Assembly: GCA_937881145.1 (NCBI GenBank) | Contig: CALGFL010000272.1 | Location: forward strand, 1-17,453 | Direction: 5' to 3' | DNA length: 17,453 nucleotides | DNA from: an uncultured Bordetella sp. | GTDB lineage: Bacteria; Pseudomonadota; Gammaproteobacteria; Burkholderiales; Burkholderiaceae_B | Part shown: piece after piece, positions 1-17,453 of the stretch | How the letters are laid out: every line of letters begins with the position of its first letter | Numbering within the stretch: the stretch's first letter is position 1 | Made by a program: the position numbers and the translations under genes | The notes under the pieces: model-generated | Told to the model about the DNA's origin: nothing | Seen by the model: the letters and a program-made list of their open reading frames with translations, nothing else | Database searches by the model: none

Positions 1-1
1 G

Positions 2-3234: not shown

Positions 3235-3263
3235 AAATAAGGGAAAACCCGAATCATTGGGCG

Positions 3264-3309
3264 TAGAATTCACTGTCATGCAATGAATCAGTCAGATGAC
3301 TGACATGAC
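3264..3309 (+). promoter_or_regulatory. Candidate promoter and palindromic site upstream of the acyltransferase gene
   Basis: A -10-like TAGAAT lies at 3264-3269 without a convincing -35. Just downstream is a perfect 7-bp inverted repeat, TCAGTCA-GA-TGACTGA (3288-3303). It is flanked by GTCATG (3275-3280) and CATGAC (3304-3309), which are also inverted copies of each other. Within this stretch CAGTCAG-ATGA-CTGACAT (3289-3306) matches the E. coli Pho-box layout (two CTGTCAT units 11 bp apart) at 11 of 14 positions, and a separate perfect CTGTCAT half-site starts at 3273. The arrangement may be an operator or a PhoB site. No good -10 lies about 10 bp downstream of the Pho-like pair, so activation from it is doubtful. 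Confidence 0.4.
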
Positions 3310-3348
3310 GCACTTGCAAACTTGCGTCCATGACAGGAGTTCTGCCCC

Positions 3349-4134
3349 ATGCTCGAGTTTGCTCGTATCGATACCCCCGCCGAAGGCAATCAAGCCTGGG
3401 CCGACACCAATACACGCGGTCTGGCGGTAGGCCTGGCGCTTACCCAGGAAGAAGTCGAACAGATCCAGCGCCTGCGCTACAGCGTGTTCACCGAGGACAT
3501 GGGCGCGGTCTTTCCCGGCGCGGAAGACGGCCTGGACCAGGACCGCTTCGATCCGTGGTGCGAGCACCTGATGGTGCGCGAACTGGACACCAAGCGCGTG
3601 GTGGGCACCTACCGCATTCTCACGCCCGAAAAAGCGCGCGAGGCGGGCGGCTATTATTCCGAGTCGGAATTCGATCTTTCCGCGCTGGGCGGCCTGCGCG
3701 ACCAGTTGGTCGAAGTGGGGCGCTCGTGTACGCATGCCGACTACCGCGGCGGCGCGGCCATCATGTTGCTGTGGTCGGGCCTGGCCGAGTTCCTGCGCCG
3801 CGGCGGCTACCGCCACATGCTGGGCTGTGCCAGCGTGAGCCTGCGCGATGGCGGCGTGACGGCGGCCGAGGTCTGGCGCACGGTGTCCAGGCACTTGCAG
3901 GATCCGGACGTGCCGCGGGTCGAGCCACGGCATCGTTATCCGGTCGAGCACTTGAACAGCACGCTGCCGGCGCGCGTGCCGCCGCTCATCAAGGGCTATC
4001 TCAAGTTGGGAGCGAGGGTATGCGGCGAACCGGCCTGGGACCCCGACTTCAACGCGGCGGATTTCCCCGTGCTGCTGTCGACCGACCGCATGGACAGCCG
4101 CTACCGCCGGCACTTCGGCCTGGAGCGCGCCTAG
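3349..4134 (+). CDS. OlsB-type L-ornithine N(alpha)-acyltransferase (GNAT fold, 'hemolysin-like' family)
   Basis: Probable acyl-ACP-dependent N-acyltransferase that makes lyso-ornithine lipid, the first step of ornithine lipid synthesis; a membrane phospholipid substitute. The 261-aa protein has the family's LuxI/GNAT-like fold signs: LRYSVFTEDMGA (about 45-56), the DxFDPWCEHLMV stretch, VVGTYRIL, YYSESEFDLS, and VEVGRSCTHADYRGGAAIMLLWSGL, followed by GCASVSL. No signal peptide or membrane helix is apparent. An AGGAG at 3335-3339, 9 bases before the ATG, supports the start. It lies between glmM and the polyphosphate/Pst genes. In rhizobia olsB is phosphate-starvation induced (established knowledge), which makes this position suggestive. 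The exact acyl acceptor is not provable from sequence, and some homologues are annotated only as putative hemolysin. Confidence 0.8.
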   Translation: MLEFARIDTPAEGNQAWADTNTRGLAVGLALTQEEVEQIQRLRYSVFTEDMGAVFPGAEDGLDQDRFDPWCEHLMVRELDTKRVVGTYRILTPEKAREAGGYYSESEFDLSALGGLRDQLVEVGRSCTHADYRGGAAIMLLWSGLAEFLRRGGYRHMLGCASVSLRDGGVTAAEVWRTVSRHLQDPDVPRVEPRHRYPVEHLNSTLPARVPPLIKGYLKLGARVCGEPAWDPDFNAADFPVLLSTDRMDSRYRRHFGLERA

Positions 4135-4156
4135 GCGCTGCGCGGCCTGTTTCCGA

Positions 4157-4186
4157 CGCGGCGGGCCTGCCGCCGCGCTCAGTTTT
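4157..4186 (+). terminator. Probable rho-independent terminator of the acyltransferase gene
   Basis: A perfect 8-bp GC-rich stem (CGCGGCGG at 4157-4164 pairing with CCGCCGCG at 4170-4177, loop GCCTG) is followed after CTCAG by TTTT at 4183-4186. It sits in the 44-bp gap between two convergent genes. The U-run is short and overlaps the 3' end of ppx, so efficiency is uncertain. No T-run follows it on the opposite strand. Confidence 0.5.
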
Positions 4187-5669
4187 CGAGCAGGTCGAAC
4201 GCGAAGCCGACCTTGCGCCATTCAGAGTCTTCGGCACGCAGCGTGAAATCGCTCAACGGGTGGCCCGCCAGCCACCTGGTCTGCACCTTCACCACGATGG
4301 ACGCGCCCTTGACCGACACCGAGAGCGGCAATTGCGCCATGTCCTGGCGCCGGCGAAAGAGCAGCACGGCCAGGCGCAGGCTCAGGATGGCCAGCCATTG
4401 CGCGCGGTCGCGCACCAGCCCCTCGACCTTGCCCAGCTTGCCCTGGTGGGCAAGCGTCAGCAGGGCGATCAACTGCTGGTCGGCGCGCGAGAAGCCGGGC
4501 ATGTCGGCGTTCTCCAGCACATAGGCCGTGTGGCGGTGATAGCCGTTGTGGGTGATGGTCAGGCCGACCTCGTGCAGATCGGCCGCCCAGCCCAGCGCGC
4601 GGCGCAGGTCGAAGTGCTCTTCCTTGTCGCCCGGCAGGACGGCGTCGAAGAAGGCCAGCGCCGTTTCGCGCACGCGGCGCGCCTGGCGCACGTCCACGTG
4701 ATAGCGCTTCATGAACTGGCGCACCGACTCGTCGCGCTTGTCGTGCTGGTCGTGGCGGCCCAGGAGATCGTAGAGCACGCCCAGGCGCAGGGCGCCGTCG
4801 CCCGTCTGCATGACGTCGATGTTCAGTTCGTCAAAGAGCGCGATCATGATGGCCAGGCCGCCCGGCAGCACGTCGGACCGGTCCGGCTTGATGCCGGGCA
4901 GCTCTTCGGCAATCACGCGGCCGGTCCGGATGATGCGCTCTTTGAGCTTGTTCATGCCGGCGCGGGTGATGCCGCCGGAGGAAAAGGCGCATTCGCCGAG
5001 AATGGCGTAAAGCGCCTTGGCCGTGCCGGAAGAGCCGTAAGCGGCCTTCCAGCCCATCTTGCGATACTGCTTGGAGATCACTTCGATCTCGCGGCGCGCG
5101 GCCATCTCGGCCTGCTTCATGCGGTGGGCATCGACCAGCCCGTCGTCGAAGAACTGGCGGCTGTAGCTCACGCAGCCCATGTAGAGCGAGGTCAGCAGAT
5201 GAGGCTCGAAGCCGCGGCCGATGATGACTTCGGTGGAGCCGCCGCCGATGTCGATCACCAGCCGGCGATCGTCCGACGGCGGCAGGCTGTGCATCACGCC
5301 CAGATAGATGAGGCGGGCCTCTTCGCGGCCGGCGATCACGTCGATGGGAAAGCCCAGGGCCGCCTCGGCGTCGGGCAGGAAATCGGAGGTGTTGCGCGCC
5401 ACGCGGAAGGTATTGGTGGCCACGGCCCGCACCCGGTCGGGCTGGAAGCTGCGCAGCCGCTCGCCGAAGCGCTCGAGCACGGCGATGGCGCGTTCGATGG
5501 CGGGACTGTCGAGCTGCTTGTCTTGCCGCAGGCCCGCGGCCAGCCGCACGGTTTCCTTGAGCCGATCGATCTGATAGATCTGCGCGACGCCGTTTTGATG
5601 GACGACGCGCCCGATAGAGAGGCGAAAGCTGTTGGACCCCAGGTCCACGGCAGCCAGAAGATGATCCAT
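4179..5669 (-). CDS. ppx: Exopolyphosphatase (Ppx/GppA family)
   Basis: Processively releases orthophosphate from the ends of polyphosphate, and/or hydrolyses pppGpp (the family includes GppA). The 496-aa protein starts with the ASKHA phosphate-1 motif AAVDLGSNSFRL (residues 6-17), has the second nucleotide-fold motif DIGGGSTEVIIG, and closes the catalytic half with TGDGALRLGVLYDLLGR. The C-terminal third (from about residue 310) is the helical HD-like domain, containing AADLHEVGL and the TLAHQGKLGK stretch. Length suits either Ppx (513 in E. coli) or GppA (494). The divergent ppk1 neighbour favours Ppx. The ATG chosen gives the canonical N-terminus, although no strong ribosome site precedes it. 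The gene converges with the acyltransferase gene. Confidence 0.93.
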   Translation of the reverse strand: MDHLLAAVDLGSNSFRLSIGRVVHQNGVAQIYQIDRLKETVRLAAGLRQDKQLDSPAIERAIAVLERFGERLRSFQPDRVRAVATNTFRVARNTSDFLPDAEAALGFPIDVIAGREEARLIYLGVMHSLPPSDDRRLVIDIGGGSTEVIIGRGFEPHLLTSLYMGCVSYSRQFFDDGLVDAHRMKQAEMAARREIEVISKQYRKMGWKAAYGSSGTAKALYAILGECAFSSGGITRAGMNKLKERIIRTGRVIAEELPGIKPDRSDVLPGGLAIMIALFDELNIDVMQTGDGALRLGVLYDLLGRHDQHDKRDESVRQFMKRYHVDVRQARRVRETALAFFDAVLPGDKEEHFDLRRALGWAADLHEVGLTITHNGYHRHTAYVLENADMPGFSRADQQLIALLTLAHQGKLGKVEGLVRDRAQWLAILSLRLAVLLFRRRQDMAQLPLSVSVKGASIVVKVQTRWLAGHPLSDFTLRAEDSEWRKVGFAFDLLEN

Positions 5670-5704
5670 GTGGCGTATCGGCGATGATGAGTATCGGAGC
5701 CGCG

Positions 5705-5710
5705 ATTATA
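5705..5710 (-). promoter_or_regulatory. Candidate -10 element for ppx
   Basis: Read on the minus strand this is a perfect TATAAT, about 35 bp upstream of the ppx ATG, leaving a 5' leader of roughly 30 nt. No recognisable -35 lies 16-18 bp further upstream, so it is only a candidate. The whole ppx-ppk1 divergent gap (5670-5763) has no CTGTCAT-like Pho box that I can see. Confidence 0.4.
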
Positions 5711-5763
5711 GAGAGCCGGCTTCGACTGGCGGCTTGGTGTTTGCTTGGTTATCCTCATAAATC

Positions 5764-7890
5764 ATGAAACAGCGCGAACTCGAAAAAACGACTCAGGAAT
5801 CTGCAACCACGGCGCGGACGGGGGTCGAACCCCGGTTGTTCAACCGCGAACTGTCGTTGCTCAAGTTCAACGAGCGGGTCCTTTCCATGGCCGAGCACCC
5901 CGAGGTGCCGCTCCTGGAACGCCTGCGCTACGTCTGCATCGTCAGCGCCAATCTGGATGAGTTCTTCGAGATCCGCATCTCGAGCCTCAAGGAGCAGCAG
6001 CGCCTGACGCCGAGCGTGATCGGCCCCGACGGCATGACGCCCGACGAGGCCTTCGATCGGGTGCAGGCCAAGGCCCATGCCCTGGTCGAGCATCAATACC
6101 GGGTGCTCAACGAGCAGATTCTGCCCGGCCTGCAGGCCGAGGGCATCGTCCTGCACCATGCTTCCGAGTGGAACGAGGCGCAGCAGCAATGGGCGCACGA
6201 TGTGTTCACGCGCGAAGTCATGCCGCTGCTCACGCCCATCGGGCTCGATCCGGCGCATCCGTTTCCGCGCGTCTACAACAAAAGCCTCAATTTCATCGTT
6301 TCCCTGTCGGGAGCCGATGCATTCGGGCGGGCAGCCTCGATCGCCGTGGTGCAGGCGCCGCGTGCGCTGCCGCGGCTCATCCGCATGCCGCCCGAGCTGT
6401 CGGGTCATCCCGAAGGCTACATTCTGCTGACTTCGTTCCTGCGCGCTTTCGTGGGCGATCTTTTCCCCGGATTGACGATCCACGGCTGCTATCAGTGGCG
6501 CGTGACGCGCAACAGCGACCTGTTCGTCGACGAGGAAGAGGTCACCAATCTGAGGTTGGCGCTGCAAGGCGAATTGTCGCAGCGCAATTTCGGCTCGGCC
6601 GTGCGGCTGGAGCTGGACTGGGTCATGCCGGCCGAGCTGGAACAGTATCTGCAGCGCGAGTTCTCGTTGACGCAGGCCGACACCTATCACATGCCGGGCC
6701 CTGTGAACCTGTCGCGCCTGATGCAGCTGTGCAATACCAACACACGGCCCGACCTGCTGTTTCCGCCTTATTACGCGCCGGTGCCGGCGCCCTTCGACAA
6801 GACGCAGGGCAAGCCGGCGGAGCTGTTCGCCGCCATCGCCGAACGCGAACGCCTGCTGCATCATCCCTACCAGTCCTTCCAGCCGGTCATCGACTTTCTC
6901 ACGGCGGCGGCGGTCGACCCCGACGTCATGGCCATCAAGCAGACCATCTATCGCACCGGCGAGGATTCCGAACTGATGCAGATCCTGCTGGCCGCGGCCC
7001 GCGCCGGCAAGGAAGTGACGGTGGTGGTGGAGCTGATGGCGCGCTTTGACGAGCAGACCAACATGAACTGGGCTTCGCGCCTGGAAGAGGTGGGGGCGCA
7101 CGTGGTCTACGGCGTGGTCGCGCACAAGACCCACGCCAAGATGCTGCTGGTGGTGCGCCGCGAGGGCGGGCGGCTACGCCGCTACGCGCACCTGGGCACC
7201 GGCAATTACCACCCCCGCACGGCGCGCCTGTACACCGATTTCGGCCTGCTCACGGCCGATCCGCGCCTGTGCGAGGACATGGACAAGGTGTTCGCGCAGC
7301 TCACCGGCCTGGGCGCGCGGCGCGAGCTCAAGTCCCTGTTGCAATCGCCCTTCACCCTGCATGCCGGCATGATCGACCTGATCCGCGCCGAAGCCCAGGC
7401 CGCGCGGGCAGGCCGCAAGGCCCACATCATGGCCAAGATGAACTCCCTGCTCGAAGAGCAGATCATCGAAGAACTCTACCTGGCCAGCCAGGCAGGCGTG
7501 ACAGTCGATCTCATCGTGCGCGGCGTATGCGCCCTGCGCGCGGGGGTCAGGGGCCTGTCCGAGAACATCAAGGTCCGCTCTATCGTGGGGCGCTTCCTGG
7601 AGCACTCCCGGGTCTTTTACTTCCACGCCGACGGCGAGGAAACGGTCTACCTGTCCTCGGCCGACTGGATGGACCGCAATTTCTTCCGTCGGGTCGAGGT
7701 GGCTTTCCCCGTGTACGACAAGACGCTCAAGCGGCGGGTCATCGCCGAGGCCTTCACCTATGCCTTGCGCGACAACCAGCGAGCCTGGCGGCTGCAGCCG
7801 GACGGCACGTACGTGCGAGCCGTCAATCAGCGCCAGCCCTTTGGCCTACATGACTATCTGATGGAAAAGCTGGGGCAAGGAAAATCTTAA
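5764..7890 (+). CDS. ppk1: Polyphosphate kinase 1
   Basis: Reversibly transfers the ATP gamma-phosphate onto polyphosphate, at the inner membrane in E. coli. The 708-aa protein is slightly longer than E. coli PPK (688). It shows the N domain start FNRELSLLKFNERVL (about 23-37) and NLDEFFEIR, a middle domain, and the C1/C2 catalytic halves with KQTIYRTGEDSEL, VELMARFDEQTN and the autophosphorylated His in HLGTGNYH (H476, with a second His at 483). Further on are LIVRGVCALR and YLSSADWMDRN. The N-terminal 20 residues are poorly conserved and no clear Shine-Dalgarno precedes this ATG, so the precise start is less sure than the identity. It is divergent from ppx and closed by its own terminator before pstS. 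Confidence 0.96.
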   Translation: MKQRELEKTTQESATTARTGVEPRLFNRELSLLKFNERVLSMAEHPEVPLLERLRYVCIVSANLDEFFEIRISSLKEQQRLTPSVIGPDGMTPDEAFDRVQAKAHALVEHQYRVLNEQILPGLQAEGIVLHHASEWNEAQQQWAHDVFTREVMPLLTPIGLDPAHPFPRVYNKSLNFIVSLSGADAFGRAASIAVVQAPRALPRLIRMPPELSGHPEGYILLTSFLRAFVGDLFPGLTIHGCYQWRVTRNSDLFVDEEEVTNLRLALQGELSQRNFGSAVRLELDWVMPAELEQYLQREFSLTQADTYHMPGPVNLSRLMQLCNTNTRPDLLFPPYYAPVPAPFDKTQGKPAELFAAIAERERLLHHPYQSFQPVIDFLTAAAVDPDVMAIKQTIYRTGEDSELMQILLAAARAGKEVTVVVELMARFDEQTNMNWASRLEEVGAHVVYGVVAHKTHAKMLLVVRREGGRLRRYAHLGTGNYHPRTARLYTDFGLLTADPRLCEDMDKVFAQLTGLGARRELKSLLQSPFTLHAGMIDLIRAEAQAARAGRKAHIMAKMNSLLEEQIIEELYLASQAGVTVDLIVRGVCALRAGVRGLSENIKVRSIVGRFLEHSRVFYFHADGEETVYLSSADWMDRNFFRRVEVAFPVYDKTLKRRVIAEAFTYALRDNQRAWRLQPDGTYVRAVNQRQPFGLHDYLMEKLGQGKS

Positions 7891-7917
7891 ATATTCGTTG
7901 AATTTCAATGAGTTAAA

Positions 7918-7955
7918 GAGAAATTCCCGGGCGTTTTTCCCGGGTTTCTTCTTTT
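7918..7955 (+). terminator. Rho-independent terminator downstream of ppk1
   Basis: CCCGGG (7926-7931) pairs with CCCGGG (7939-7944) around a CGTTTTT loop. The stem extends by GAAA (7920-7923) with TTTC (7945-7948) across a two-base TT bulge, and a T-rich tract runs to 7955. It separates ppk1 from the pst promoter. Confidence 0.75.
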
Positions 7956-7959
7956 GTGA

Positions 7960-7993
7960 CTGTCATATTCTTGTCACTCAGGACTTCTAAGAT
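7960..7993 (+). promoter_or_regulatory. Pho box and -10 of the pst operon
   Basis: CTGTCAT-ATTC-TTGTCAC (7960-7977) matches the E. coli Pho-box consensus (CTGTCAT, 4-bp AT-rich spacer, CTGTCAC/T) at 13 of 14 repeat positions. A TAAGAT (7988-7993) begins 10 bp after it, the spacing expected when PhoB replaces -35 recognition. It lies about 60 bp before the pstS ribosome site. PhoB-dependent induction under low phosphate is inferred from this match. Confidence 0.82.
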
Positions 7994-8052
7994 GGCTGGG
8001 CTTTCAGTGGAATCGAACTGTCCGCATCCTTCCAACTTATAAGGAATCCACG

Positions 8053-9099
8053 ATGTTCACGCGTGTTTTCAAGCAAGTCACCCTCGGTGTTGCCCTGAGC
8101 GCCGCCGTTTTCTCGGCCCAGGCTACCGACATCACCGGCGCGGGCTCTTCCTTCGCCTACCCCGTTTACGCCAAGTGGGCCGTCGGCTTCAAGGCCGCCA
8201 GCGGCTCGGCCGTGAACTATCAGTCGATCGGTTCGGGCGCCGGCATCAAGCAGATCGAATCCAAGACCGTGGACTTCGGCGCTTCCGACATGGCCCTGAG
8301 CGGTGCCGAACTCGACAAGAACAACCTGGTGCAGTTCCCCGGCGTGGTCGGCGGCATCGTGCCCGTGGTCAACCTGCCTGGCATCAAACCGGGTGAACTG
8401 AAGTTCACCGGCGCCGTGCTGGCCGACATCTACATGGGCAAAATCACCTCGTGGGACGACAAGGCCATCGCCGCGCTGAACCCCGGCGTCAAGCTGCCCA
8501 ACCAGGACATCCTGCCGATCTACCGTTCCGACGCTTCGGGCACCTCGTTCAACTACACGACCTACCTGACCGACGTGTCGGCCGACTGGAAGAGCAAGAT
8601 CGGTTTCGGTACCGACGTGAAGTGGCCCGTGGGCCAGGGCGGCAAGGGCAACGAAGGCGTGTCCAACCTGGTCAAGCAGTTCCAGGGCGCGATCGGCTAC
8701 GTCGAAATCGCCTACTCCACCACCAACCACCTGACCTACGGCCTGGTCGCGAACAAGGCCGGCAAGTACGTGCAGCCGACCCTGGAGACCTTCACGGCCG
8801 CCGCCGCGAACGCCAACTGGGATGCGCAGCCCGGCATGGGCGTGGTGCTGGTTGACGAGCCGGGCGACAATTCCTGGCCCCTGACCGTGGCCACCTATGT
8901 GCTGGTGCAGAAGGTGCAGGACAAGCCCGCCAACGGCGCCGAAGTCCTGAAGTTCTTCGATTACGGCTACACCAAGGGCAAGAAAGACGCCGAGTCGCTG
9001 ATCTACGTGCCGCTGCCCGACAATGTCGTCGCCAAGATCCACAAGTCGTGGGAGCAGATCAAGGACACCTCGGGCAAGCCCGTCTACGCCGCCAAGTAA
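8053..9099 (+). CDS. pstS: Periplasmic phosphate-binding protein PstS
   Basis: Captures inorganic phosphate in the periplasm and delivers it to the PstCAB importer. The 348-aa precursor has a Sec signal peptide: a basic N-terminus, hydrophobic VTLGVALSAAVF, and cleavage predicted after SAQA (residue 24), leaving a mature protein of about 324 aa, close to the E. coli mature form (321). Phosphate-site motifs are TGAGSSF (28-34), SIGSGAGIKQI, DFGASDMAL and RSDASGTSF, with GNEGVSNLVKQ downstream. AAGGA at 8041-8045, 7 bases before the ATG, fixes the start. It is the first gene of pstSCAB, behind a Pho box, and is separated from pstC by a strong hairpin. Confidence 0.97.
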   Translation: MFTRVFKQVTLGVALSAAVFSAQATDITGAGSSFAYPVYAKWAVGFKAASGSAVNYQSIGSGAGIKQIESKTVDFGASDMALSGAELDKNNLVQFPGVVGGIVPVVNLPGIKPGELKFTGAVLADIYMGKITSWDDKAIAALNPGVKLPNQDILPIYRSDASGTSFNYTTYLTDVSADWKSKIGFGTDVKWPVGQGGKGNEGVSNLVKQFQGAIGYVEIAYSTTNHLTYGLVANKAGKYVQPTLETFTAAAANANWDAQPGMGVVLVDEPGDNSWPLTVATYVLVQKVQDKPANGAEVLKFFDYGYTKGKKDAESLIYVPLPDNVVAKIHKSWEQIKDTSGKPVYAAK

Positions 9100-9126
9100 T
9101 TGCGGATCGTGGGATGTCTTGAGTAA

Positions 9127-9165
9127 ACGGCGCGAGGGCGGGCCATAGGTCCGCCCTTGTGCCGT
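9127..9165 (+). promoter_or_regulatory. Strong intercistronic RNA hairpin between pstS and pstC
   Basis: An uninterrupted 18-bp stem (left arm 9127-9144, right arm 9148-9165, three G-U pairs) closes on an ATA triloop. It begins 27 bp after the pstS stop and ends 7 bp before the pstC Shine-Dalgarno (AAAGGGA, 9173-9179). No T-run follows, so it is not a classical terminator. The likely role is 3'-end protection of pstS mRNA or partial read-through, giving more binding protein than permease. Structure is seen directly; function is inferred. Confidence 0.8.
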
Positions 9166-9184
9166 CTAGCGCAAAGGGAAGCTG

Positions 9185-10204
9185 ATGAGTGCGGTACTTG
9201 ATAATATGCCGGGCGGAACGCGGGTAAATCTCCCCGCGGATGTTACCGTCGGGAAAACTCCCCCCATGAAAAAGCCCAAGCATGCGTTCGCGGACATGCT
9301 GTTTCGAAACGCGACGCGCTTCTTTGCCTTCGCCGTCTTCTGTCTGCTGCTGGCGATCCTGATCTCGCTGGCCCTCGGCAGCACGACCACCCTGCACAAA
9401 TACGGCCTGTCTTTTCTCTGGACCAACGACTGGGATCCGGTGAACAGCCAGTTCGGCGCCCTGGTGCCCATCTTCGGCACCCTGGCCACCTCCCTCGTGG
9501 CGCTCGCCATCGCCGTGCCCGTCTCGTTCGGCATCGCCATGTTCCTCACCGAACTGTCGCCGACCTGGCTGCGCCGCCCGCTGGGCATCGCGATCGAGAT
9601 GCTGGCCGCCATTCCCTCCATCATCTACGGCATGTGGGGCCTGTTCATCTTCGCCCCGCTGTTTCAGCACTACCTCGAGCCCTATCTCATCCACGCGCTG
9701 AGCCCCATCCCCGGCATCGGCTTCATGTTCAAGGGACCGGCCTTCGGCATCGGCGTGTTCACGGCCGGCGGCATTCTCGCGGTGATGATCATCCCCTTCA
9801 TCACCGCCGTCATGCGCGACGTGTTCGAACTCGTGCCCTCCCTGCTGAAAGAATCCGCCTACGGCCTGGGCGGCACGACCTGGGAAGTCATGTACAAGGT
9901 GGTGCTGCCCTACACGCGCATCGGCGTGATCGGCGGCATCATGCTGGGCCTGGGCCGCGCGCTGGGCGAGACCATGGCGGTCACCTTCGTCATCGGCAAC
10001 GCCTTCCGGCTCGGCTCCCTGTTCCAGCCCGGCAACTCGATCGCCTCGGCGCTGGCCAACCAGTTCGCCGAAGCCAGCAACGCCACGCACCGGTCGGCGC
10101 TGATCGAGCTCGGCCTTATCCTGTTCCTCATCACCACCATCGTCCTGGCCCTGTCCAAGCTGCTGTTGCTGCGCCTGGCCAAGGGCGAGGGCGCGCGGAG
10201 CTGA
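9185..10204 (+). CDS. pstC: Phosphate ABC transporter permease PstC
   Basis: One of the two inner-membrane channel subunits of the PstSCAB importer. The 339-aa protein has about six hydrophobic segments, the first at residues 46-66 ([20 protein letters not shown]). It carries the binding-protein-dependent transport fold with the coupling-helix (EAA-like) stretch [20 protein letters not shown] at about 223-242, and [15 protein letters not shown] after it. It is 20 aa longer than E. coli PstC (319) because of a roughly 40-residue hydrophilic N-terminus. An alternative ATG at 9266 would remove most of that, but AAAGGGA at 9173-9179 supports the upstream ATG. pstA starts 2 bp after the stop. Confidence 0.95.
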
Positions 10205-10206
10205 GC

Positions 10207-11064
10207 ATGTCCACTCTCGGCATGAATAATCCCATCTACCGGCGCCGCAGCCGGGTCAACAAGGTCATGCTGACCTTGTCGTTCCTGGCGGTGCTGTTCG
10301 GCCTGTTCTGGCTGTTCTGGATCATCGCCACGCTGCTGTACAAGGGCGGCGGCCAGCTTTCCTATACGCTGTTCACGCAGATCACCCCGCCGCCGGGCTC
10401 GCCGGGCGGCCTGATCAACGCCATCGTCGGCAGCGGCCTGATGGCGGGCGTGGGCACGCTCATCGGCACGCCCGTGGGCATCATGGCGGGCACCTACCTG
10501 GCCGAATACGGCCGGCGCGGCTGGCTCGCCCCGGCCACGCGCTTCATCAACGACGTGCTGCTGTCTGCGCCGTCCATCGTCGTGGGCCTGTTCATCTATA
10601 CCGTCTACGTGGCCCAGGCCAAGCACTTCTCCGGCTGGGCCGGGGCGATTGTGCTATCGGTGCTGGTGGTGCCGGTGGTGGTGCGCACCACCGACGACAT
10701 GCTCAAGCTGGTGCCCAACAGCCTGCGCGAGGCCTGCGCGGCCCTGGGCTGCCCCGAGTGGAAGATGATCACCATGGTGTGCTACCGAGCGGCCCGCTCG
10801 GGCATCGTGACCGGCGTGCTGCTGGCCATCGCCCGCATTGTCGGCGAAACCGCGCCGCTGGTTTTCACCGCGCTCAACAGCCAGTTCATGACCTGGAACA
10901 TGAATGCGCCCATGGCCAACCTGCCCATGACCATCTATCAATACGCCATGAGTCCCTACGACGATTGGCAGCGCCTGGCCTGGGCCGGCGCCCTGTTGAT
11001 CACGCTGCTGGTGCTGGTGGTCAATATCGTGGCCCGCGCCCTGTTCAGCAGGCCCAACGTTTAA
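10207..11064 (+). CDS. pstA: Phosphate ABC transporter permease PstA
   Basis: Second channel subunit of the phosphate importer in the inner membrane. The 285-aa protein (E. coli 296) begins with a short basic cytoplasmic tail (YRRRSRVNK), then a hydrophobic segment (about 20-41, [20 protein letters not shown]) and further membrane spans. The family signature runs include [34 protein letters not shown], the coupling stretch [16 protein letters not shown], and [19 protein letters not shown] at 10197-10200 serves as ribosome site inside the end of pstC; the ATG lies two bases past the pstC stop, indicating tight translational coupling. Confidence 0.96.
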
Positions 11065-11110
11065 GGCATCCGGCCGCCATCGCCCGTTGCCCACCTTTTC
11101 CGGAACCGAA

Positions 11111-11890
11111 ATGGAACATCCCAGTTCAAGCCAAGCTCCCTCCAAGCTGGAAGTCAAGAATCTCAACTTCTTCTACGGCAACTTCCATGCGATCCGCAAT
11201 GTGAACATGTCGATCCGCGAGAACAAGGTCACGGCCTTCATCGGTCCGTCGGGCTGCGGCAAGTCGACGCTGCTGCGCACCTTCAATCGCATGTTCGAGC
11301 TCTACCCCGGCCAGCGCGCCGAGGGCGAGATCATGCTGGACGGCGAGAACCTGCTCACCACCAACACCGACATCGCGCTGATCCGCGCCAAGGTCGGCAT
11401 GGTGTTCCAGAAGCCCACGCCGTTTCCCATGAGCATCTACGACAACATCGCCTTCGGCGTGCGCTTGTTCGAGAAGCTCAGCAAGGGTGAGATGCAAGAG
11501 CGCGTCGAATGGGCGCTTACCAAAGCCGCGCTGTGGAACGAAGTGAAGGACAAGCTGCACCAGAGCGGCAGCAGTCTGTCTGGCGGCCAGCAGCAGCGCC
11601 TGTGCATTGCGCGCGGCGTGGCGATCAAGCCCGAAGTGCTGCTGCTGGACGAACCCTGCTCGGCGCTGGACCCGATCTCCACCGCCAAGATCGAAGAGCT
11701 CATCGCCGAGCTCAAAGGCGAGTACACCGTGGTCATCGTGACCCACAACATGCAGCAGGCCGCGCGTTGCTCGGACTACACGGCCTATATGTACATGGGC
11801 GAACTGATGGAGTTCGGCGCGACCGACCAGATCTTCGTCAAGCCCAAGCGCAAAGAAACCGAAGACTACATCACGGGTCGTTTCGGCTGA
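11111..11890 (+). CDS. pstB: Phosphate ABC transporter ATPase PstB
   Basis: Cytoplasmic ATPase that powers PstSCAB. The 259-aa protein (E. coli 257) has Walker [10 protein letters not shown] (45-53), Q-loop Q100, ABC signature LSGGQ (156-160), Walker B VLLLDE (176-181) and the switch His in THNMQ (H212), all intact. I chose the ATG at 11111, preceded by a weak GGAA. A TTG at 11087 would add eight residues without a better ribosome site. It follows pstA by 46 bp. The usual downstream phoU is not here; a convergent proQ-like gene follows after 67 bp. Confidence 0.96.
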
Positions 11891-11912
11891 TTTGTTTTTT
11901 GCTGCGCGGGTT

Positions 11913-11974
11913 GTTCTTCGAGTTCTTGGGACGCCTGCGCAGGGCAGCCTCGGCGACTTAAGAACCCGAAGAAC
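11913..11974. repeat. Inverted repeat joining the pstB and proQ 3' ends
   Basis: GTTCTTCGAGTTCTT (11913-11927) and AAGAACCCGAAGAAC (11960-11974) are inverted copies with a single mismatch (a G-U pair in one RNA strand). A 32-nt loop between them contains a second palindrome, CCTGCGCAGG (11934-11943). The right arm encodes the last codons and stop of the proQ-like gene. Neither strand has a U-run right after the structure, so it is not a canonical terminator. It could protect or pause both convergent transcripts. Confidence 0.55.
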
Positions 11975-12698
11975 CGACAGTGTCGTCGGCTTCGTCGGCG
12001 GATACGGAGATGGTTGCCTCATCAGCGGCAGGAGCCTCTGCTGAGGAGTCAGCAGCGGGTGCGGCAGGGGGCGCAGCAGCATCTTGCGCAGCCGGTGCCT
12101 GCGCCTTGGCCGCGGCCTGCGCCTTCTTGCGCTGCTGGCGCGCCAGGAAGCTGGCATGGCCTGCTTCGGCCGCCGTTACCGTGCCGCTGGGTTCGCCGTT
12201 CAGATCGACCCGCACCGCCTCCTTGCTCAGCGCGGCCCAATAGCGGCCCACGCTGCACCATGCGGCGATGGCGGCCTTGATCTCTTCTTCGCTCAGGCGC
12301 AGCTTGGCGGCGTGGGCGTAGAGATCTTCCACGATGCCCAGCTTGAGCGCCACGCGCGGAGCGGGTTTCTTGGGGAAGGCCTTGGGAAAGGCGTGCTGCA
12401 GCCGGCCGATGGCCACCAGCAAAGGATCACGCGGCGTTTCCGGCTGCTGCGGCTTGCCTTGCGGGGCGGGGCGCTTCTGGCCTTGCGGCTTTTTGCGTGC
12501 CTCGTCCTGCGTGCGCCGCGGCTTGCCTTCGGGGCGCTCGTCCTTGCGGGCTTGAGCCGGCTTGGCGGCGCGCGGCCTGTCTGCGTCGTTCTTGCCGGTC
12601 TTGGCCGGCTTGTCTTGCGTATTCTTGCCGTGGCCATCGCGCGCGGCGCGCTCGGCCGCAAGCTGATCGCGCAGGGCGGCGAGTTGTTCGAATCCCAT
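11958..12698 (-). CDS. ProQ/FinO-domain RNA chaperone
   Basis: Predicted RNA-binding protein of the ProQ/FinO family, which binds structured RNAs and 3' hairpins and stabilises sRNAs and mRNAs. The 246-aa protein has three zones. Residues 1-90 are strongly basic and probably disordered (Lys/Arg/Pro/Gln). Residues about 92-190 form the FinO-like helical domain, with LQHAFPKAFPK, ALKLGIVEDLYA, and WCSVGRYWAALSKEAVRVDLNGEPSGTV, ending at ASFLARQQRKK. Residues 195-246 are Ala/Pro-rich and acidic. The E. coli ProQ C-terminal Tudor-like domain is absent. It is convergent with pstB and separated from kdgR by a terminator. The start ATG has only a weak ribosome site. RNA binding follows from the family; targets are unknown. 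Confidence 0.85.
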   Translation of the reverse strand: MGFEQLAALRDQLAAERAARDGHGKNTQDKPAKTGKNDADRPRAAKPAQARKDERPEGKPRRTQDEARKKPQGQKRPAPQGKPQQPETPRDPLLVAIGRLQHAFPKAFPKKPAPRVALKLGIVEDLYAHAAKLRLSEEEIKAAIAAWCSVGRYWAALSKEAVRVDLNGEPSGTVTAAEAGHASFLARQQRKKAQAAAKAQAPAAQDAAAPPAAPAADSSAEAPAADEATISVSADEADDTVGSSGS

Positions 12699-12763: not shown

Positions 12764-13585
12764 CTATTGTATGCGCGTCGGGGCCTGCTCGGCTCGATAG
12801 CCCAGCCGGGCCGACGCGGCGGCGCCGGCGTGCTTGAGCATCTCGATATAGTGCGTCCTGGTGTCCGCGCTGCAGCGTATCGACGGGAACGAGATCGACA
12901 GCCCCGCGGCCACAAAGCCCAGGCGGTCGAAAATAGGCACGGCCAGGCAGCGCAGGCCTTCTTCCTGCTCTTCGTCGTCTTCCCCGTAGCTCTGCCGGCG
13001 CACGCTGGGCAGGATGCTCAGCACCGCCTCGGCCGAGGTCAGCGTTCTCGCGGTCAGCTTCCTGAATTCGACGCGCGAGAGGATTTCGCGCGCTTCTTCG
13101 GGGCTGCGCCAGGCCAGCAGCACCTTGCCGATCGCCGTGCTGTAGAGCGGATTGCGCCGGCCTATGCGCGACTGCATGCGCAGGCCGTAGTCGGCATCGA
13201 TCTTATGGATATAGATGATGCTGTCTTCGTCGAAGGCGCCCAGGTGCACGGTTTCGCGGGTCTGCTGCGCGATCTGCCGCATTTCCTTGTCCGCCTCGCG
13301 CACCAGATCGACGTGTTCCAGCGCCTGCGCGCCCAACTGGAACAGCCTGATGGTCAGGCGGTAGCGTTCGGTGTCGCTTTCCTGCTCCACGTAGCCCAGT
13401 CCGCGCAAGGTCTGAAGCAACCGGTGCACGGTGGTCTTGGACATGTCCAGCCGCTGCGCCAGGGCGCTGATGCCCACCGGACCGCACTGGCCTATCGCAT
13501 CCAGAATGGCGAAAGTCTTGCCGACCGAAGCGACGGATTCGGTGCTCATGACGGCCGGGTCAGGATTTTTCGAAGGCGTATGCAT
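12764..13585 (-). CDS. kdgR: IclR-family transcriptional regulator, KdgR type
   Basis: Probable repressor of 2-keto-3-deoxygluconate (KDG) genes, released by KDG in enterobacteria. The 273-aa protein has an N-terminal winged helix-turn-helix (about 17-80; recognition region LAQRLDMSKTTVHRLLQTL) and a C-terminal IclR effector domain. Its wording closely follows E. coli KdgR as I recall it: HLGAFDEDSIIYIHKID, SRIGRRNPLYSTAIGKVLLAW, YGEDDEEQEEGLRC and AGLSISFPS. The start is uncertain: ATGs at 13594, 13585 and 13549 are possible, none with a good ribosome site; longer readings run into kduD and are not family-like. It lies 22 bp behind kduD, probably co-transcribed, which suggests autoregulation through the sites near 14460 and 14568. 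Confidence 0.88.
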   Translation of the reverse strand: MHTPSKNPDPAVMSTESVASVGKTFAILDAIGQCGPVGISALAQRLDMSKTTVHRLLQTLRGLGYVEQESDTERYRLTIRLFQLGAQALEHVDLVREADKEMRQIAQQTRETVHLGAFDEDSIIYIHKIDADYGLRMQSRIGRRNPLYSTAIGKVLLAWRSPEEAREILSRVEFRKLTARTLTSAEAVLSILPSVRRQSYGEDDEEQEEGLRCLAVPIFDRLGFVAAGLSISFPSIRCSADTRTHYIEMLKHAGAAASARLGYRAEQAPTRIQ

Positions 13586-13607
13586 GAGGCGCATTGTATG
13601 GGCAGGC

Positions 13608-14369
13608 TCACCGCGCCAGCCAGCCGCCGTCCACCGCCAGCGTGTGCCCGTGCAGATAGTCGGACGCGGCCGAGGCGAGGAACACGGCCGGCCCGGCCAG
13701 GTCTTCCGGCATGCCCCAGCGGCCCGCCGGAATGCGTTCGAGGATTTCCCGGCTGCGGCGGACGTCGCAGCGCAGCGCAGCGGTATTGTTCGTCTCGATA
13801 TAGCCCGGCGCGATGGCGTTGACATTGATGCCGCGCGCCGCCCATTCATTGGCCAGCAGGCGCGTCAGGCCGAGCACGCCGCTTTTCGCGGCGGTGTAGG
13901 ACGGCACGCGGATGCCGCCCTGGAACGACAGCATCGAGGCGATATTGATGATCTTGCCCGGGCCGCCTTGGGCGATGAACTGGCGCGCCACGGCTTGCGA
14001 GAGGAAAAACACGCTCTTGAGGTTGACATCCAGCACCGCGTCCCAGTCCTGCTCGGTGAAGTCCAGGGCATCGTTGCGGCGGATGATGCCGGCGTTGTTG
14101 ACCAGGATGTCGATGCGGCCATAGGCCTGCACGGTGTCGCGCACGATGCCGGCAATGGGCGCGGTGCTCGCGAGGTCGGCGCGCAGGTCGAGGTAGCGCC
14201 GGCCGGCGGCGCGCACGTCCGCGGCGGTCTGCTCGGGCGCACTGCGGTTGACGCCGGCGATGTCGCAGCCGGCTCGCGCCAGCGCCTGGGCGATGGCCGC
14301 GCCCAGGCCGGTGTTGCAGCCGGTGACTACCGCGACCTTGCCGCCCAGATCGAACATGTTTGCATTCAT
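13608..14369 (-). CDS. kduD: 2-dehydro-3-deoxy-D-gluconate 5-dehydrogenase (KduD)
   Basis: NAD(H)-dependent short-chain dehydrogenase that in pectin and uronate degraders interconverts 2,5-diketo-3-deoxygluconate and KDG. The 253-aa length equals E. coli KduD. Seen are the Rossmann motif TGCNTGLG (16-23), NNAG (91-94), and the catalytic triad Ser145, Tyr158 and Lys162 (YTAAK). KduD-typical stretches also occur: IINIASMLSFQGGIRVPSY, INVNAIAPGY, and a C-terminal AVDGGWLAR. AAGGG 7 bases before the ATG supports the start. It is divergent from kdgT and leads the kduD-kdgR transcript. The isomerase kduI that normally supplies its substrate is not in the window. Confidence 0.93.
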   Translation of the reverse strand: MNANMFDLGGKVAVVTGCNTGLGAAIAQALARAGCDIAGVNRSAPEQTAADVRAAGRRYLDLRADLASTAPIAGIVRDTVQAYGRIDILVNNAGIIRRNDALDFTEQDWDAVLDVNLKSVFFLSQAVARQFIAQGGPGKIINIASMLSFQGGIRVPSYTAAKSGVLGLTRLLANEWAARGINVNAIAPGYIETNNTAALRCDVRRSREILERIPAGRWGMPEDLAGPAVFLASAASDYLHGHTLAVDGGWLAR

Positions 14370-14429
14370 GGTGTGCCCTTTGCGGGTGTATGCCGGTGCG
14401 CGCCGGCGCCGGGTCTCTGCGCTGCGGCG

Positions 14430-14469
14430 ATTAGAGCATGCGGTGTTTTTTCGGAACGATAGTCCGAAA
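14430..14469 (-). promoter_or_regulatory. Operator-like palindrome over the candidate kduD promoter
   Basis: TTTCGGA (14449-14455) and TCCGAAA (14463-14469) form a perfect 7-bp inverted repeat. Its core CGGAACGATAGTCCG is a near-copy of the palindrome at 14561-14575. On the minus strand a -10-like TCTAAT lies at 14430-14435, so the palindrome covers the -35 position of a kduD promoter, although no good -35 hexamer is visible. Binding by KdgR is inferred. Confidence 0.5.
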
Positions 14470-14556
14470 TATGGAAAAAGCTAGAATCAAGTTTCCATTA
14501 AAAAGGAATTTTTGGCTAAAAAATAATAGAAGTAGGGCATGTTTCGATTCGATAAA

Positions 14557-14585
14557 TTATCGGAACGATGTTCCGTATTTATGAT
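14557..14585 (+). promoter_or_regulatory. Candidate kdgT promoter with internal operator
   Basis: CGGAACGATGTTCCG (14561-14575) is a perfect inverted repeat (6-bp arms, 3-bp centre). It sits between a weak -35, TTATCG (14557-14562), and a -10, TATGAT (14580-14585), spaced 17 bp: the usual arrangement for repression. Two AT-rich palindromes overlap or adjoin it: CGATAAATTATCG (14550-14562) and ATTTATGATAAAT (14577-14589). The rest of the kduD-kdgT gap (14370-14667) shows a small GGACC/GGTCC hairpin (14636-14650) just ahead of the kdgT ribosome site, and no gene. Confidence 0.55.
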
Positions 14586-14667
14586 AAATTGCCCGGCACA
14601 AGCACGCGGCAAAGACGTGCGACCCACATACAACGGGACCTTCGCGGTCCTTCGAGGAGACAGATTC

Positions 14668-15669
14668 ATGAACATCAAAAAGGCCGTGGACCGCGTTCCC
14701 GGAGGGCTGATGCTGGTCCCGCTGCTGCTTGGGGCCGTTGTGCACACGTTCGCGCCCAAGGCAGGCGCGTATTTCGGATCGTTCACCAACGGGCTTATCA
14801 CGGGCACCGTTCCCATTTTGTCGGTCTGGTTCTTCTGCATGGGTGCGACCATCGACCTGCGGGCCACGGGCACGGTGCTGCGCAAGTCGGGCACCATCGT
14901 GGTCACCAAGGCGCTGATCGCCTGGCTGGTCACGCTGGTCTGCACCCATTTCATCCCCGACGAAGGCATCAAGACGGGCCTGTTCGCCGGCCTGTCCATC
15001 CTGGCCATCACCGCGGCCATGGACATGACCAACGGCGGCCTCTACGCCGCCGTGATGCAGCAATACGGCACCAAAGAAGAAGCGGGCGCCTTCGTGCTGA
15101 CCTCGATCGAGTCCGGGCCGCTCATCAGCATGCTCATCCTCGGCGCCACGGGCGTGGCCAGCTTCGACGGCCGCCTGTTCGTCGGCGCGGTGCTGCCTTT
15201 CGTCATCGGCTTCGTGCTCGGCAATCTGGACAAGCAGCTGCGCGAGCTGTTCGGCAGCTGCGTGGTCGCGCTGATTCCGTTCTTCGGTTTCGCGCTGGGC
15301 TGCGGCATCGATCTGACCGTGGTGTTCAAGAGCGGCCTGCCCGGCGTGTTCCTGGGCCTGGCGGTGATCGTCGTCACCGGCATCCCGCTCATCCTGGCCG
15401 ACAAAGTGATCGGCGGGGGCAACGGCGCGGCGGGCCTGGCAGCCTCGTCCACCGCCGGCGCGGCGGTCGCCAACCCGGCGATCATCGGCGAGATGATCCC
15501 CAAGTTCAAACCTCTGGTGCCCGCCGCCACGGCCCTGGTCGCCACGTCCTGCCTGATCACCGCGATCCTCGTGCCCATTCTTACCGCCATGTGGGCGCGC
15601 CGGTTCGGCAACTACCAGGCGCCGCAGGAAGACATGGCCACGGCCGTCCCGGCGATCGTGCACCACTGA
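14668..15669 (+). CDS. kdgT: 2-keto-3-deoxygluconate permease (KdgT family)
   Basis: Inner-membrane proton symporter for KDG; in Erwinia and E. coli it imports KDG and related keto-deoxy acids. The 333-aa protein (E. coli 327) consists of about ten hydrophobic segments. It carries family stretches such as [20 protein letters not shown] at the N-terminus, [42 protein letters not shown], and [20 protein letters not shown]. The ATG at 14668 is preceded by GAGGAGA at 14654-14660, a strong ribosome site, and gives the family-typical start; upstream in-frame extensions run through the promoter region. It is the first gene of an apparent operon with the dehydrogenase and hydrolase below. Confidence 0.94.
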
Positions 15670-15714
15670 AGCGCGGCTCCGTCCTCGATCAACGCAACGC
15701 AGGAAGAAAGCATC

Positions 15715-16458
15715 ATGTCGCAACGATTGGCCGGCAAGACGGCCGTGATCACCGCGGCCGGGCAAGGCATAGGCCGGGCCTGCGCCGAGCGGTTCGCCAG
15801 CGAGGGCGCCCGCGTCATCGCTACCGACGTGCGCATCGACGCGCTTGCCGGCCTGCCGGTGCAGGCCAGCAAGCTGGACGTGCGCGACGATGCCGCGATC
15901 AAGGCGCTGGCCGCGGAGCTGGGGCCGATCGACGTGCTGTTCAATTGCGCCGGCTTCGTGCATGCCGGCTCCATCCTGCAGGCCAGCGACGAAGACTGGG
16001 ACTTCGCCTTCGACCTGAACGTCAAGGCCATGTACCGCACCATCCGCGCCTTCCTGCCGGGCATGCTGGCCAGGGGGGGCGGCTCCATCATCAACATGTC
16101 CTCGGCGGCATCGAGCATCAAGGGCGTGCCCAACCGGTTCGTGTACAGTGCCTCCAAGGCGGCCGTGATCGGCCTGACCAAGTCGGTCGCTGCCGATTTC
16201 GTCGCGCAGAAGGTGCGCTGCAACGCCATCTGCCCGGGCACGGTCGCCTCGCCTTCGCTAGAGCAGCGCATCGTCGAGCAGGCCGCGGCGCAGGGCACCA
16301 GCGTCGAGGCCGCCCGCGCCGCGTTCGTCGCCCGCCAGCCCATGGGCCGGCTGGGCGAACCGCAGGAGATCGCCGCGCTGGCCTTGTACCTGGCCAGCGA
16401 CGAATCCGCGTTCACCACCGGCCAGACGCACGTCATCGACGGCGGCTGGGCTAATTGA
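15715..16458 (+). CDS. Short-chain dehydrogenase, DHRS6 / 2-keto-3-deoxy-L-fuconate dehydrogenase-like
   Basis: Cytoplasmic NAD-dependent oxidoreductase, 247 aa, classical SDR length. The nucleotide motif is TAAGQGIG (13-20), with Ala where most SDRs have the first Gly, as in human DHRS6. Asp38 after strand 2 predicts NAD over NADP. NCAG is at 77-80, catalytic Ser130, Tyr144 and Lys148 (YSASK). The stretches AFLPGMLA, IINMSSAASSIKGV and AAVIGLTKSVAADF also resemble DHRS6. Some close homologues oxidise 2-keto-3-deoxy-L-fuconate or -rhamnonate at C4 in non-phosphorylated sugar pathways, and the next gene encodes the matching hydrolase type. A role on KDG itself is my inference. AGGAAG (15701-15706) precedes the ATG by 8 bases; the gap to kdgT is 45 bp. 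Confidence 0.85.
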   Translation: MSQRLAGKTAVITAAGQGIGRACAERFASEGARVIATDVRIDALAGLPVQASKLDVRDDAAIKALAAELGPIDVLFNCAGFVHAGSILQASDEDWDFAFDLNVKAMYRTIRAFLPGMLARGGGSIINMSSAASSIKGVPNRFVYSASKAAVIGLTKSVAADFVAQKVRCNAICPGTVASPSLEQRIVEQAAAQGTSVEAARAAFVARQPMGRLGEPQEIAALALYLASDESAFTTGQTHVIDGGWAN

Positions 16459-16521
16459 TCCCGAGCCGGGCGCGCCGCGCGTTCGCCCGCACCTCATAGT
16501 CCGCTAGAAGGAAAAGCAAAG

Positions 16522-17370
16522 ATGAAACTGATGCGCTACGGGCCCAAAGGCCAAGAGAAACCCGGCCTGCTCGATGCCCAAGGCCGTATCCGGGACCTGT
16601 CCGGCGTGGTGGCCGACATCGACGGCTCCGTGCTCGACGACGCAAGCCTGACACGCCTGCGCGCGCTCGATGCGGCGTCGCTGCCGCTGGTGCAGGGCAA
16701 TCCCCGCATCGGCCCTTGCGTGGGCAGCATCGGCAAATTCATCTGCATCGGCCTGAACTATGCCGACCATGCGGCCGAGTCGAACCTGCCCGTGCCCGCC
16801 GAACCCGTCGTGTTCAACAAGTGGAACAGCGCCATCAGCGGCCCCAACGACGACATCGAGATTCCGCGCGGCTCGCAAAAAACCGATTGGGAGGTGGAGC
16901 TGGGCGTGGTGATCGGCAAGCCTGCCAAGTACATCACCGAAGCCCAGGCGCTGGACCACGTCGCCGGCTATTGCGTCATCAACGACGTGTCCGAGCGCGC
17001 ATGGCAGATCGAGCGCGGCGGCACCTGGGACAAGGGCAAGGGTTTCGACACGTTCGGCCCCATCGGCCCCTGGCTGGTCACCGCCGACGAAGTGCCCGAC
17101 CCCCAGAACCTGGGCCTGTGGCTCGAAGTCGACGGCCACCGCTACCAGAACGGCAGCACCCGCACCATGGTCTTTACCGTCGCCAAACTGGTGTCCTACC
17201 TGTCGCAGTGCATGAGCCTGCAGCCGGGCGATGTCATCTCCACCGGCACGCCGCCGGGCGTGGGCATGGGCGTCAAACCCAATCCGGTGTACCTGAAGCC
17301 GGGCCAGACGGTGCGGCTGGGCATCGACGGGCTGGGCGAGCAGACGCAGAAGACGGTCTCGGCAAAATAG
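16522..17370 (+). CDS. Fumarylacetoacetate hydrolase-fold enzyme, probable 2,4-diketo-3-deoxy-sugar-acid hydrolase
   Basis: Metal-dependent C-C bond hydrolase of the FAH superfamily, 282 aa. Seen are FICIGLNYADHAAE (73-86), VVFNKWNSAISGP, the metal-binding pattern DWEVELGVVIGK (Glu124, Glu126) with Asp155 in INDVSERAWQ, GKGFDTFGPIGPW (172-184), and STGTPPGVGMG near the end. This subtype is often labelled ureidoglycolate lyase, but the characterised relatives next to such a dehydrogenase split 2,4-diketo-3-deoxy-L-fuconate or -rhamnonate into pyruvate and lactate. Acting after the preceding dehydrogenase here, it would release pyruvate plus a three-carbon acid; the substrate is inferred from context. 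AAGGAAA before the ATG supports the start; no terminator is visible before the tRNA gene. Confidence 0.87.
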   Translation: MKLMRYGPKGQEKPGLLDAQGRIRDLSGVVADIDGSVLDDASLTRLRALDAASLPLVQGNPRIGPCVGSIGKFICIGLNYADHAAESNLPVPAEPVVFNKWNSAISGPNDDIEIPRGSQKTDWEVELGVVIGKPAKYITEAQALDHVAGYCVINDVSERAWQIERGGTWDKGKGFDTFGPIGPWLVTADEVPDPQNLGLWLEVDGHRYQNGSTRTMVFTVAKLVSYLSQCMSLQPGDVISTGTPPGVGMGVKPNPVYLKPGQTVRLGIDGLGEQTQKTVSAK

Positions 17371-17415: not shown

Positions 17416-17453
17416 CGGGGCGTAGCGCAGCCTGGTAGCGCATCTGCTTTGGG
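17416..17453 (+). tRNA. tRNA-Pro(TGG), 3'-truncated by window edge
   Basis: The first 38 bases of a tRNA are present: acceptor strand CGGGGCG, TA, D-arm GCGC...GCGC around AGCCTGGTA, the 5' anticodon stem TCTGC, and loop TTTGGG. The anticodon TGG therefore falls at positions 34-36, reading proline CCA codons and others by wobble. The gene runs past the window end, so the 3' half cannot be checked. Confidence 0.9.

Follow-up and report, generated by a model that had tools for sequence, protein, structure and literature searches.

A KdgR-type locus of an uncultured Bordetella sp. with a putative oxidative-hydrolytic route for 2-keto-3-deoxy-D-gluconate

The DNA analysed here, referred to as the window, is a stretch of 17,453 nucleotides from an uncultured Bordetella sp. 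that forms contig 272 of its genome assembly (G000; 3.02 Mb, 547 contigs, 77% complete) and carries a KdgR-type locus of five genes: kdgR, kduD, kdgT, SDR2 (a 4-dehydrogenase homologue located after kdgT) and FAH (a hydrolase homologue located after SDR2), the last two being termed the pair. From comparison of the sequences we hold, with moderate confidence, that the most likely role of this locus is to import 2-keto-3-deoxy-D-gluconate (KDG) and turn it into pyruvate and D-glycerate. The locus would represent a KdgR-type regulon for KDG uptake and breakdown in which SDR2 and FAH take over, or run alongside, the final steps that usually fall to the kinase KdgK and the aldolase Eda. More tentatively, we propose for the Bordetella and Ralstonia type an ATP-free KDG route within the KdgR regulon, in which a C4 dehydrogenase and an FAH-fold hydrolase yield pyruvate, D-glycerate and NADH, and which would let some lineages drop the KDG kinase.

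All five genes are present without interruption. The kdgR gene (12764..13585, minus strand) encodes an IclR-family regulator scoring 420.1 bits with NF011671 (cut-off 275) and showing 59% identity to KdgR of Escherichia coli K-12; position 13585 is the 5' end of the frame, and the real start codon may sit slightly inside it. Next to it, kduD (13608..14369, minus strand) encodes a 2-keto-3-deoxygluconate 5-dehydrogenase of the SDR type (TIGR01832, 412 versus 338.85; 67% identity to K-12 KduD) that is narrowly under the cut-off of NF006528 (416 versus 430), and kdgT (14668..15669, plus strand) encodes a KDG:H+ symporter (TIGR00793, 481 versus 453.8 for a translation begun one codon further upstream; 66% identity to K-12 KdgT). 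The NCBIfam equivalog cut-offs of NF011671, TIGR01832 and TIGR00793 are thus reached, and the names that an initial annotation, made from the letters alone, had given to these three genes are borne out. The same holds for the DHRS6-like dehydrogenase and FAH-fold hydrolase that it had placed after kdgT. SDR2 (15715..16458, plus strand), a homologue of type-1 L-2-keto-3-deoxyfuconate (L-KDF) 4-dehydrogenases, finds its best PDB matches in the L-KDF 4-dehydrogenase structures 8XWK (E 6.5e-103), 8Y11 and 8Y4J, with human DHRS6 (2AG5) next, and FAH (16522..17370, plus strand), a homologue of FAH-fold 2,4-diketo-3-deoxy-sugar-acid hydrolases, best matches 8GSR (E 1.1e-99), an L-2,4-diketo-3-deoxyrhamnonate hydrolase, while scoring under the cut-off of NF053535 (2,4-didehydro-3-deoxy-L-rhamnonate hydrolase; 444.2 versus 500). 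The gaps between kdgT and SDR2 and between SDR2 and FAH measure 45 and 63 bp. The E. coli KdgK, Eda and KduI queries were all without a match in the window at E ≤ 1e-3, and the classical phosphorylative arrangement, with kdgK and eda inside the locus, was not found there.

A search of 250 genomes drawn from the family gave KdgT-family matches at E ≤ 0.001 in 117, and the best 30 loci, the window included, were inspected. Among these 30, the KdgT proteins of two sister genomes of the same genus, G197 and G217, are 95–96% identical to that of the window, the other 27 loci showing 37–39%. Both sisters possess the locus of the window plus one gene, kduI, sited between kduD and kdgT, whose product is 65–66% identical to E. 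coli KduI and, in G197, passes NF002091 (416 versus 250). The presence of kduI in both sister loci points to a module that both produces and imports KDG. In the window assembly, 77% complete, a KduI-family match was not found. When compared with G197 and G217, the kduD leader and the region upstream of kduI are both kept and are fused at an approximate junction (14376..14384) near a short CCTTG-like stretch common to both leaders, so that kduI appears to have been lost cleanly, although the missing gene might conceivably be an error of the metagenome assembly. With kduI lost, the locus of the window would draw on KDG that other organisms produce. The genomes G241 and G181, which belong to a different genus of the same family (g4) and lay outside the best 30, have a KdgT 65–66% identical to that of E. 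coli, and the pair was not found in the 18–19 kb fetched around it. A further KdgT homologue, of the 38% group, was matched in two frames (G092:C1:1831152-1832067) and possibly is a frameshifted gene. KdgT homologues also occur on plasmids (263 records, 216 of them from Escherichia, with 188 of the 263 typed as conjugative).

The neighbourhoods of kduI were then surveyed with the KduI of G197 as query, taking one genome per species (536 relatives) and inspecting all of the best 80 loci, 53 of which belong to the Burkholderiales; the Bordetella contig among these is G217 itself. In all 53, kdgT is divergent from kduI-kduD-kdgR, and in six of them SDR2 and FAH adjoin kdgT, namely in all five Ralstonia loci and in G217, where FAH is cut by the contig end. 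Together with G197 and the window this amounts to eight locus-linked cases of the pair after kdgT. Among the remaining 27 of the best 80 loci, kdgK and eda are located near kduI-kduD in five (three of six Aeromonas and both Proteus, one of the five also having kdgT), and neither combination was found in 22 under the identity limits used. Where the neighbouring genes point to the next step of KDG metabolism, they are thus kdgK and eda in some lineages and SDR2 and FAH in others; in most KduI loci they give no hint of it.

Two palindromes located between the two divergent arms of the locus are candidate KdgR operators: GGAACGATAGTCCG (14453..14466) is kept in the window, G197 and G217, with one base different in G217, and GGAACGATGTTCCG (14562..14575) is kept in all three. 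In all 53 Burkholderiales loci the 330 bp in front of kduI contain the pattern GGAACGNNRTTCCG with at most one mismatch, with two sites in 30 of them, as compared with a mean of 0.05 of 53 loci for shuffled sequences (20 rounds), none of 53 for the reversed pattern, and nine sites in the other 976,542 bases of the same loci; these loci are related to each other, and the pattern was derived from Bordetella sequences, of which the set itself includes one. From their position we infer that the palindromic sites are KdgR targets. At the same stringency no site was found in the scanned edd-eda or eda stretches of G000, G197 and G217, nor in the scanned KguK-like genes, the glycerate kinase gene or the Ralstonia kinase cluster described below, and one site lies 3.4 kb away from a kdgK-like gene of G197. 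A genome-wide scan of three genomes with up to two mismatches was uninformative, as the reversed-pattern control outnumbered the pattern in all three.

In the pathway that we propose, KDG would be imported by KdgT, as its orthology suggests, and in the fuller locus of the two sisters it would also be made by KduI and KduD, whose families are known to convert 5-keto-4-deoxyuronate, the product of unsaturated uronates, to KDG. SDR2 would oxidize KDG with NAD+ at its C4(S) hydroxyl, the resulting 2,4-diketo acid would be hydrolysed by FAH to pyruvate and D-glycerate, and the glycerate would then be taken up by glycerate kinase, with KdgR presumably acting at the two conserved sites between the divergent arms. 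KDG is favoured as the substrate because kduI is present in the sisters, because the pair follows kdgT behind a conserved site, because kdgK and eda lie near kduI-kduD elsewhere, because G217 lacks a kdgK-like gene at the syntenic place, and because glycerate kinase is present. Both flanks of the kdgK-like gene of G197 are found on one contig of G217, where they are 79 bases apart instead of 996 and only about 30 bases of the 3' end of the gene remain; the syntenic region was not found in G000. A gene of the glycerate kinase family, of the PF02595 type, is present in all five searched genomes of the genus (TIGR00045, 489 versus 168 in the genome of the window), and a MOFRL-type glycerate kinase had no match in three Bordetella genomes and is present in two Ralstonia. 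The pair is under purifying selection, with dN/dS values of 0.073 for FAH (window and G197, a single pair) and 0.10–0.14 for SDR2 (three pairs).

Several observations weigh against KDG as the substrate of the pair. The main rival explanation, itself doubtful in our view, is that SDR2 and FAH serve another 4(S)-hydroxy 2-keto-3-deoxy acid (L-KDF, L-KDGal or D-KDP, with a preference for one of the first two) that is also imported by KdgT, the KDG made by KduD passing through a kinase and an aldolase. Residues R141, T176, R185 and R207 of SDR2 correspond to R148, T183, R192 and R214 of the Herbaspirillum huttiense enzyme and, with the triad S130/Y144/K148, conform to the type-1 signature (Arg148-Thr183-Arg192-Arg214 plus a Ser-Tyr-Lys triad), the Arg-Thr-Arg-Arg pattern being defined in PMC11199699. 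SDR2 retains the pocket of that enzyme together with the Trp in contact with the C6 methyl group of L-KDF, and all eight locus-linked SDR2 proteins keep the triad and the nine pocket residues that had been mutated. According to Table 1 of PMC11199699, the H. huttiense L-KDF 4-dehydrogenase oxidizes 4(S) substrates, D-KDG among them, with kcat/Km values (min-1 mM-1) of 7900 for L-KDF, 1480 for L-KDGal, 641 for D-KDP and 75 for D-KDG, so that D-KDG, with a Km of 6.6 mM, is a poor substrate, about 105-fold below L-KDF. This order of preference, together with the shared pocket, argues for the rival. The pocket set is not specific to the locus: of the 30 further rows in the alignment, 19 have it complete and 11 have all of it except Trp252, which cannot be called there since the extracted sequences end early; the pattern therefore assigns the type of enzyme and not its substrate. 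Differences marking KDG specificity were sought among the known pocket residues of SDR2 and none was found. At position 185, next to a residue in contact with the cofactor, the eight locus-linked proteins have A, N or V, whereas most others have E or D and four rows S or A, which is only a hint of a mark of KDG-linked SDR2. FAH carries His83 and Glu86, named as the residue pair of C785_RS20550 in PMC6336799. KDG chemistry by the pair is possible: its residues for catalysis and substrate binding are intact, and the H. huttiense enzyme does act on D-KDG, both of which speak for it.

The origin of the pair bears on the same rival, as its closest homologues sit in fucose-type loci. In the SDR2 tree (38 rows, 37 different) the eight locus-linked rows form one group (95/89) next to proteins of Caballeronia and of the genome G511, whereas in the FAH tree (33 rows, 32 different) FAH of Bordetella groups with the fucose-linked FAH of G511 (93/90) and not with those of Ralstonia. 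The only NCBIfam match at E ≤ 1e-30 of a protein in the neighbouring Caballeronia and G511 loci was L-fucono-1,5-lactonase (213 and 186 bits, cut-off 400), and the G511 locus has in addition a UxaA/GarD-type dehydratase gene and RbsABC-like transporter genes; by gene content, these loci are read as fucose- or arabinose-type pathways. With its nearest relatives in such loci, the pair was probably recruited to kdgT from a pathway of this kind, once or twice: the SDR2 tree agrees with a single recruitment, but the FAH tree disagrees, requiring two changes, and none of its 200 bootstrap trees had one. Among 399 genomes of the order, 80 matched SDR2 at E ≤ 1e-60; 30 of these loci were listed, and the window alone had kdgT within 1.5 kb, none of the other 29 doing so, while an FAH gene lies beside SDR2 in most of them. 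In one Ralstonia locus (L079) kdgT and SDR2 are about 0.5 kb (~501 bp) apart. The other-acid explanation is, on the other hand, opposed by the placement of the pair after kdgT behind the shared site, by the annotation of kdgT in the KDG transporter family, and by a search of three Bordetella and five Ralstonia genomes for the UxaA/GarD-type dehydratase, in which no close relative turned up (best 35–39%; enolase-type dehydratases were not searched). Among the five genes of the locus there is no sugar-acid dehydratase of the fucose/arabinose type, and the best match to the UxaA/GarD-type query in the genome showed 37%. The early suggestion that the pair serves KDG gains from the kduI of the sisters, the short gaps after kdgT, the conserved site in front of it, the kdgK and eda near kduI-kduD in some Aeromonas and Proteus, and the gap in G217; the putative reaction with D-KDG is weakened by the preference of the nearest enzyme for L-KDF.

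A second alternative, which we judge unlikely, is that KDG is handled mainly by the phosphorylative route, with a kinase and Eda encoded elsewhere, and that SDR2 and FAH form a side or overflow route or are passengers. The initial annotation had regarded kdgK, eda and kduI as missing, which is true of the window; an absence of the genes usually consuming KDG from the genome as a whole is not supported. Eda-family genes number two in G000, both outside the locus and one beside edd, two in G217 and one in G197; none was found in G036, G113 and G092. In the 77% complete assembly of G000, the E. coli KDG kinase query had no match, and the kinase of another genus of the family gave a weak partial match only (E 2.7e-6, 29%). 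G197 has a kdgK-like gene, 73% identical to a G241 gene that adjoins an Eda homologue, and its best NCBIfam match is the KDG/KDGal kinase, under the cut-off (185 versus 400). A second kinase homologue (35%), present in G217 and also in G197, reached 159 versus 400 with the same model; in G197 its neighbours read as a 2-hydroxyacid dehydrogenase and a LacI-type regulator, and it is perhaps a 2-ketogluconate kinase, although it may also act on KDG. All five pair-bearing Ralstonia (55%) and seven of nine Burkholderia, Paraburkholderia and Trinickia genomes have kdgK-like homologues at 53–56%, and in Ralstonia the gene shares a cluster with a GntP permease and an Eda homologue that is 47% identical to the E. 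coli protein. One such cluster (L220, 7535-14803) comprises a KDG-kinase-like PfkB, a 440-aa protein, an amidohydrolase, the GntP permease and the Eda homologue, and may represent a D-glucosaminate-to-KDG pathway.

The distribution of the pair likewise speaks for the phosphorylative alternative. In 47 of the 53 Burkholderiales loci, and so in most with the same module, kdgT is without the pair, although in three of the 47 (L087, L107 and L125) the sequence past kdgT is too short for a judgement. Replacement of the kinase by the pair was tested by presence and absence and failed: no inverse relation exists, Ralstonia having both and two of the nine Burkholderia-type genomes (G258 and G259) having neither the kdgK-like gene nor the pair beside kdgT. 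What argues against a mainly phosphorylative route is the absence of the kdgK-like gene at the syntenic place in G217, the purifying selection on the pair, and the lack of a KdgR-type site in the scanned eda stretches. Genomes that are free of the kinase and carry the kdu/SDR2/FAH locus are possible.

That the locus is decaying in the genome of the window and supports growth on nothing is very improbable: kduI is cleanly gone, but the remaining five genes are intact, and kduD shows no relaxation, its dN/dS with the window (0.16–0.17) not exceeding the 0.18 between the sisters, which keep kduI.

Outside the locus, open reading frames in positions 1–12698 were read as ftsH, folP, glmM, an acyltransferase-like gene, a ppx-like gene, ppk, pstS-pstC-pstA-pstB and proQ, a profile scan having been made for ProQ only. 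At its end (17419–17453) the contig seems to break off within a tRNA gene, tRNA-Pro-like by eye. The sole ARAGORN call, a tRNA-Phe at 5809–5902, lies inside the ppk-like gene and is probably false. Among the plasmid records, a VOC-family protein (L160, AP028202.1, 5220–5654) bears a resistance prediction as ‘VIM beta-lactamase, 100% identity’, apparently an artefact of annotation.

KDG is a branch point in the catabolism of pectin, alginate, glycosaminoglycans and uronates, for which kinase/aldolase and direct aldolase routes are known. If the proposed pathway is true, KDG would have one more fate, an oxidative-hydrolytic exit, pathway predictions would change for Burkholderiales that look kdgK-negative, and the locus would show the end of a pathway exchanged between sugar systems that obey a single regulator. 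The enzymes and the chemistry of Route III are known; in the titles and opening lines of abstracts listed by searches of the open-licence PMC literature, which is no proof of absence, we met neither a KDG route via a C4 dehydrogenase and FAH nor their joining with kdgR, kdgT and kduI-kduD.

Compared with the enterobacterial KdgR regulon, whose members include kdgT, kduI, kduD, kdgK and eda, the locus has homologous KdgR, KduD and KdgT, and KduI in the two sisters, at 59–67% identity, but lacks kdgK and eda and has SDR2 and FAH in their place. With the L-rhamnose Route III (LRA5/LRA6; 8GSR) it shares a homologue of the L-2,4-diketo-3-deoxyrhamnonate hydrolase, although FAH remains below the cut-off for that enzyme (444 versus 500) and SDR2 belongs with the 4(S) L-KDF dehydrogenases and not with those of the L-KDR type. 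It resembles Route III for L-fucose and D-pentoses (FucF-FucG; C785_RS13675 and C785_RS20550 of H. huttiense) in its adjacent type-1 R-T-R-R 4-dehydrogenase and FAH-fold hydrolase, and differs in that its genes include neither a sugar dehydrogenase nor a lactonase nor a sugar-acid dehydratase but kdgR, kduD and kdgT, with kduI in two sisters. The locus thus unites known enzymes in an unusual and probably functional combination, a variant of the non-phosphorylative Route III with a putative role in KDG catabolism.

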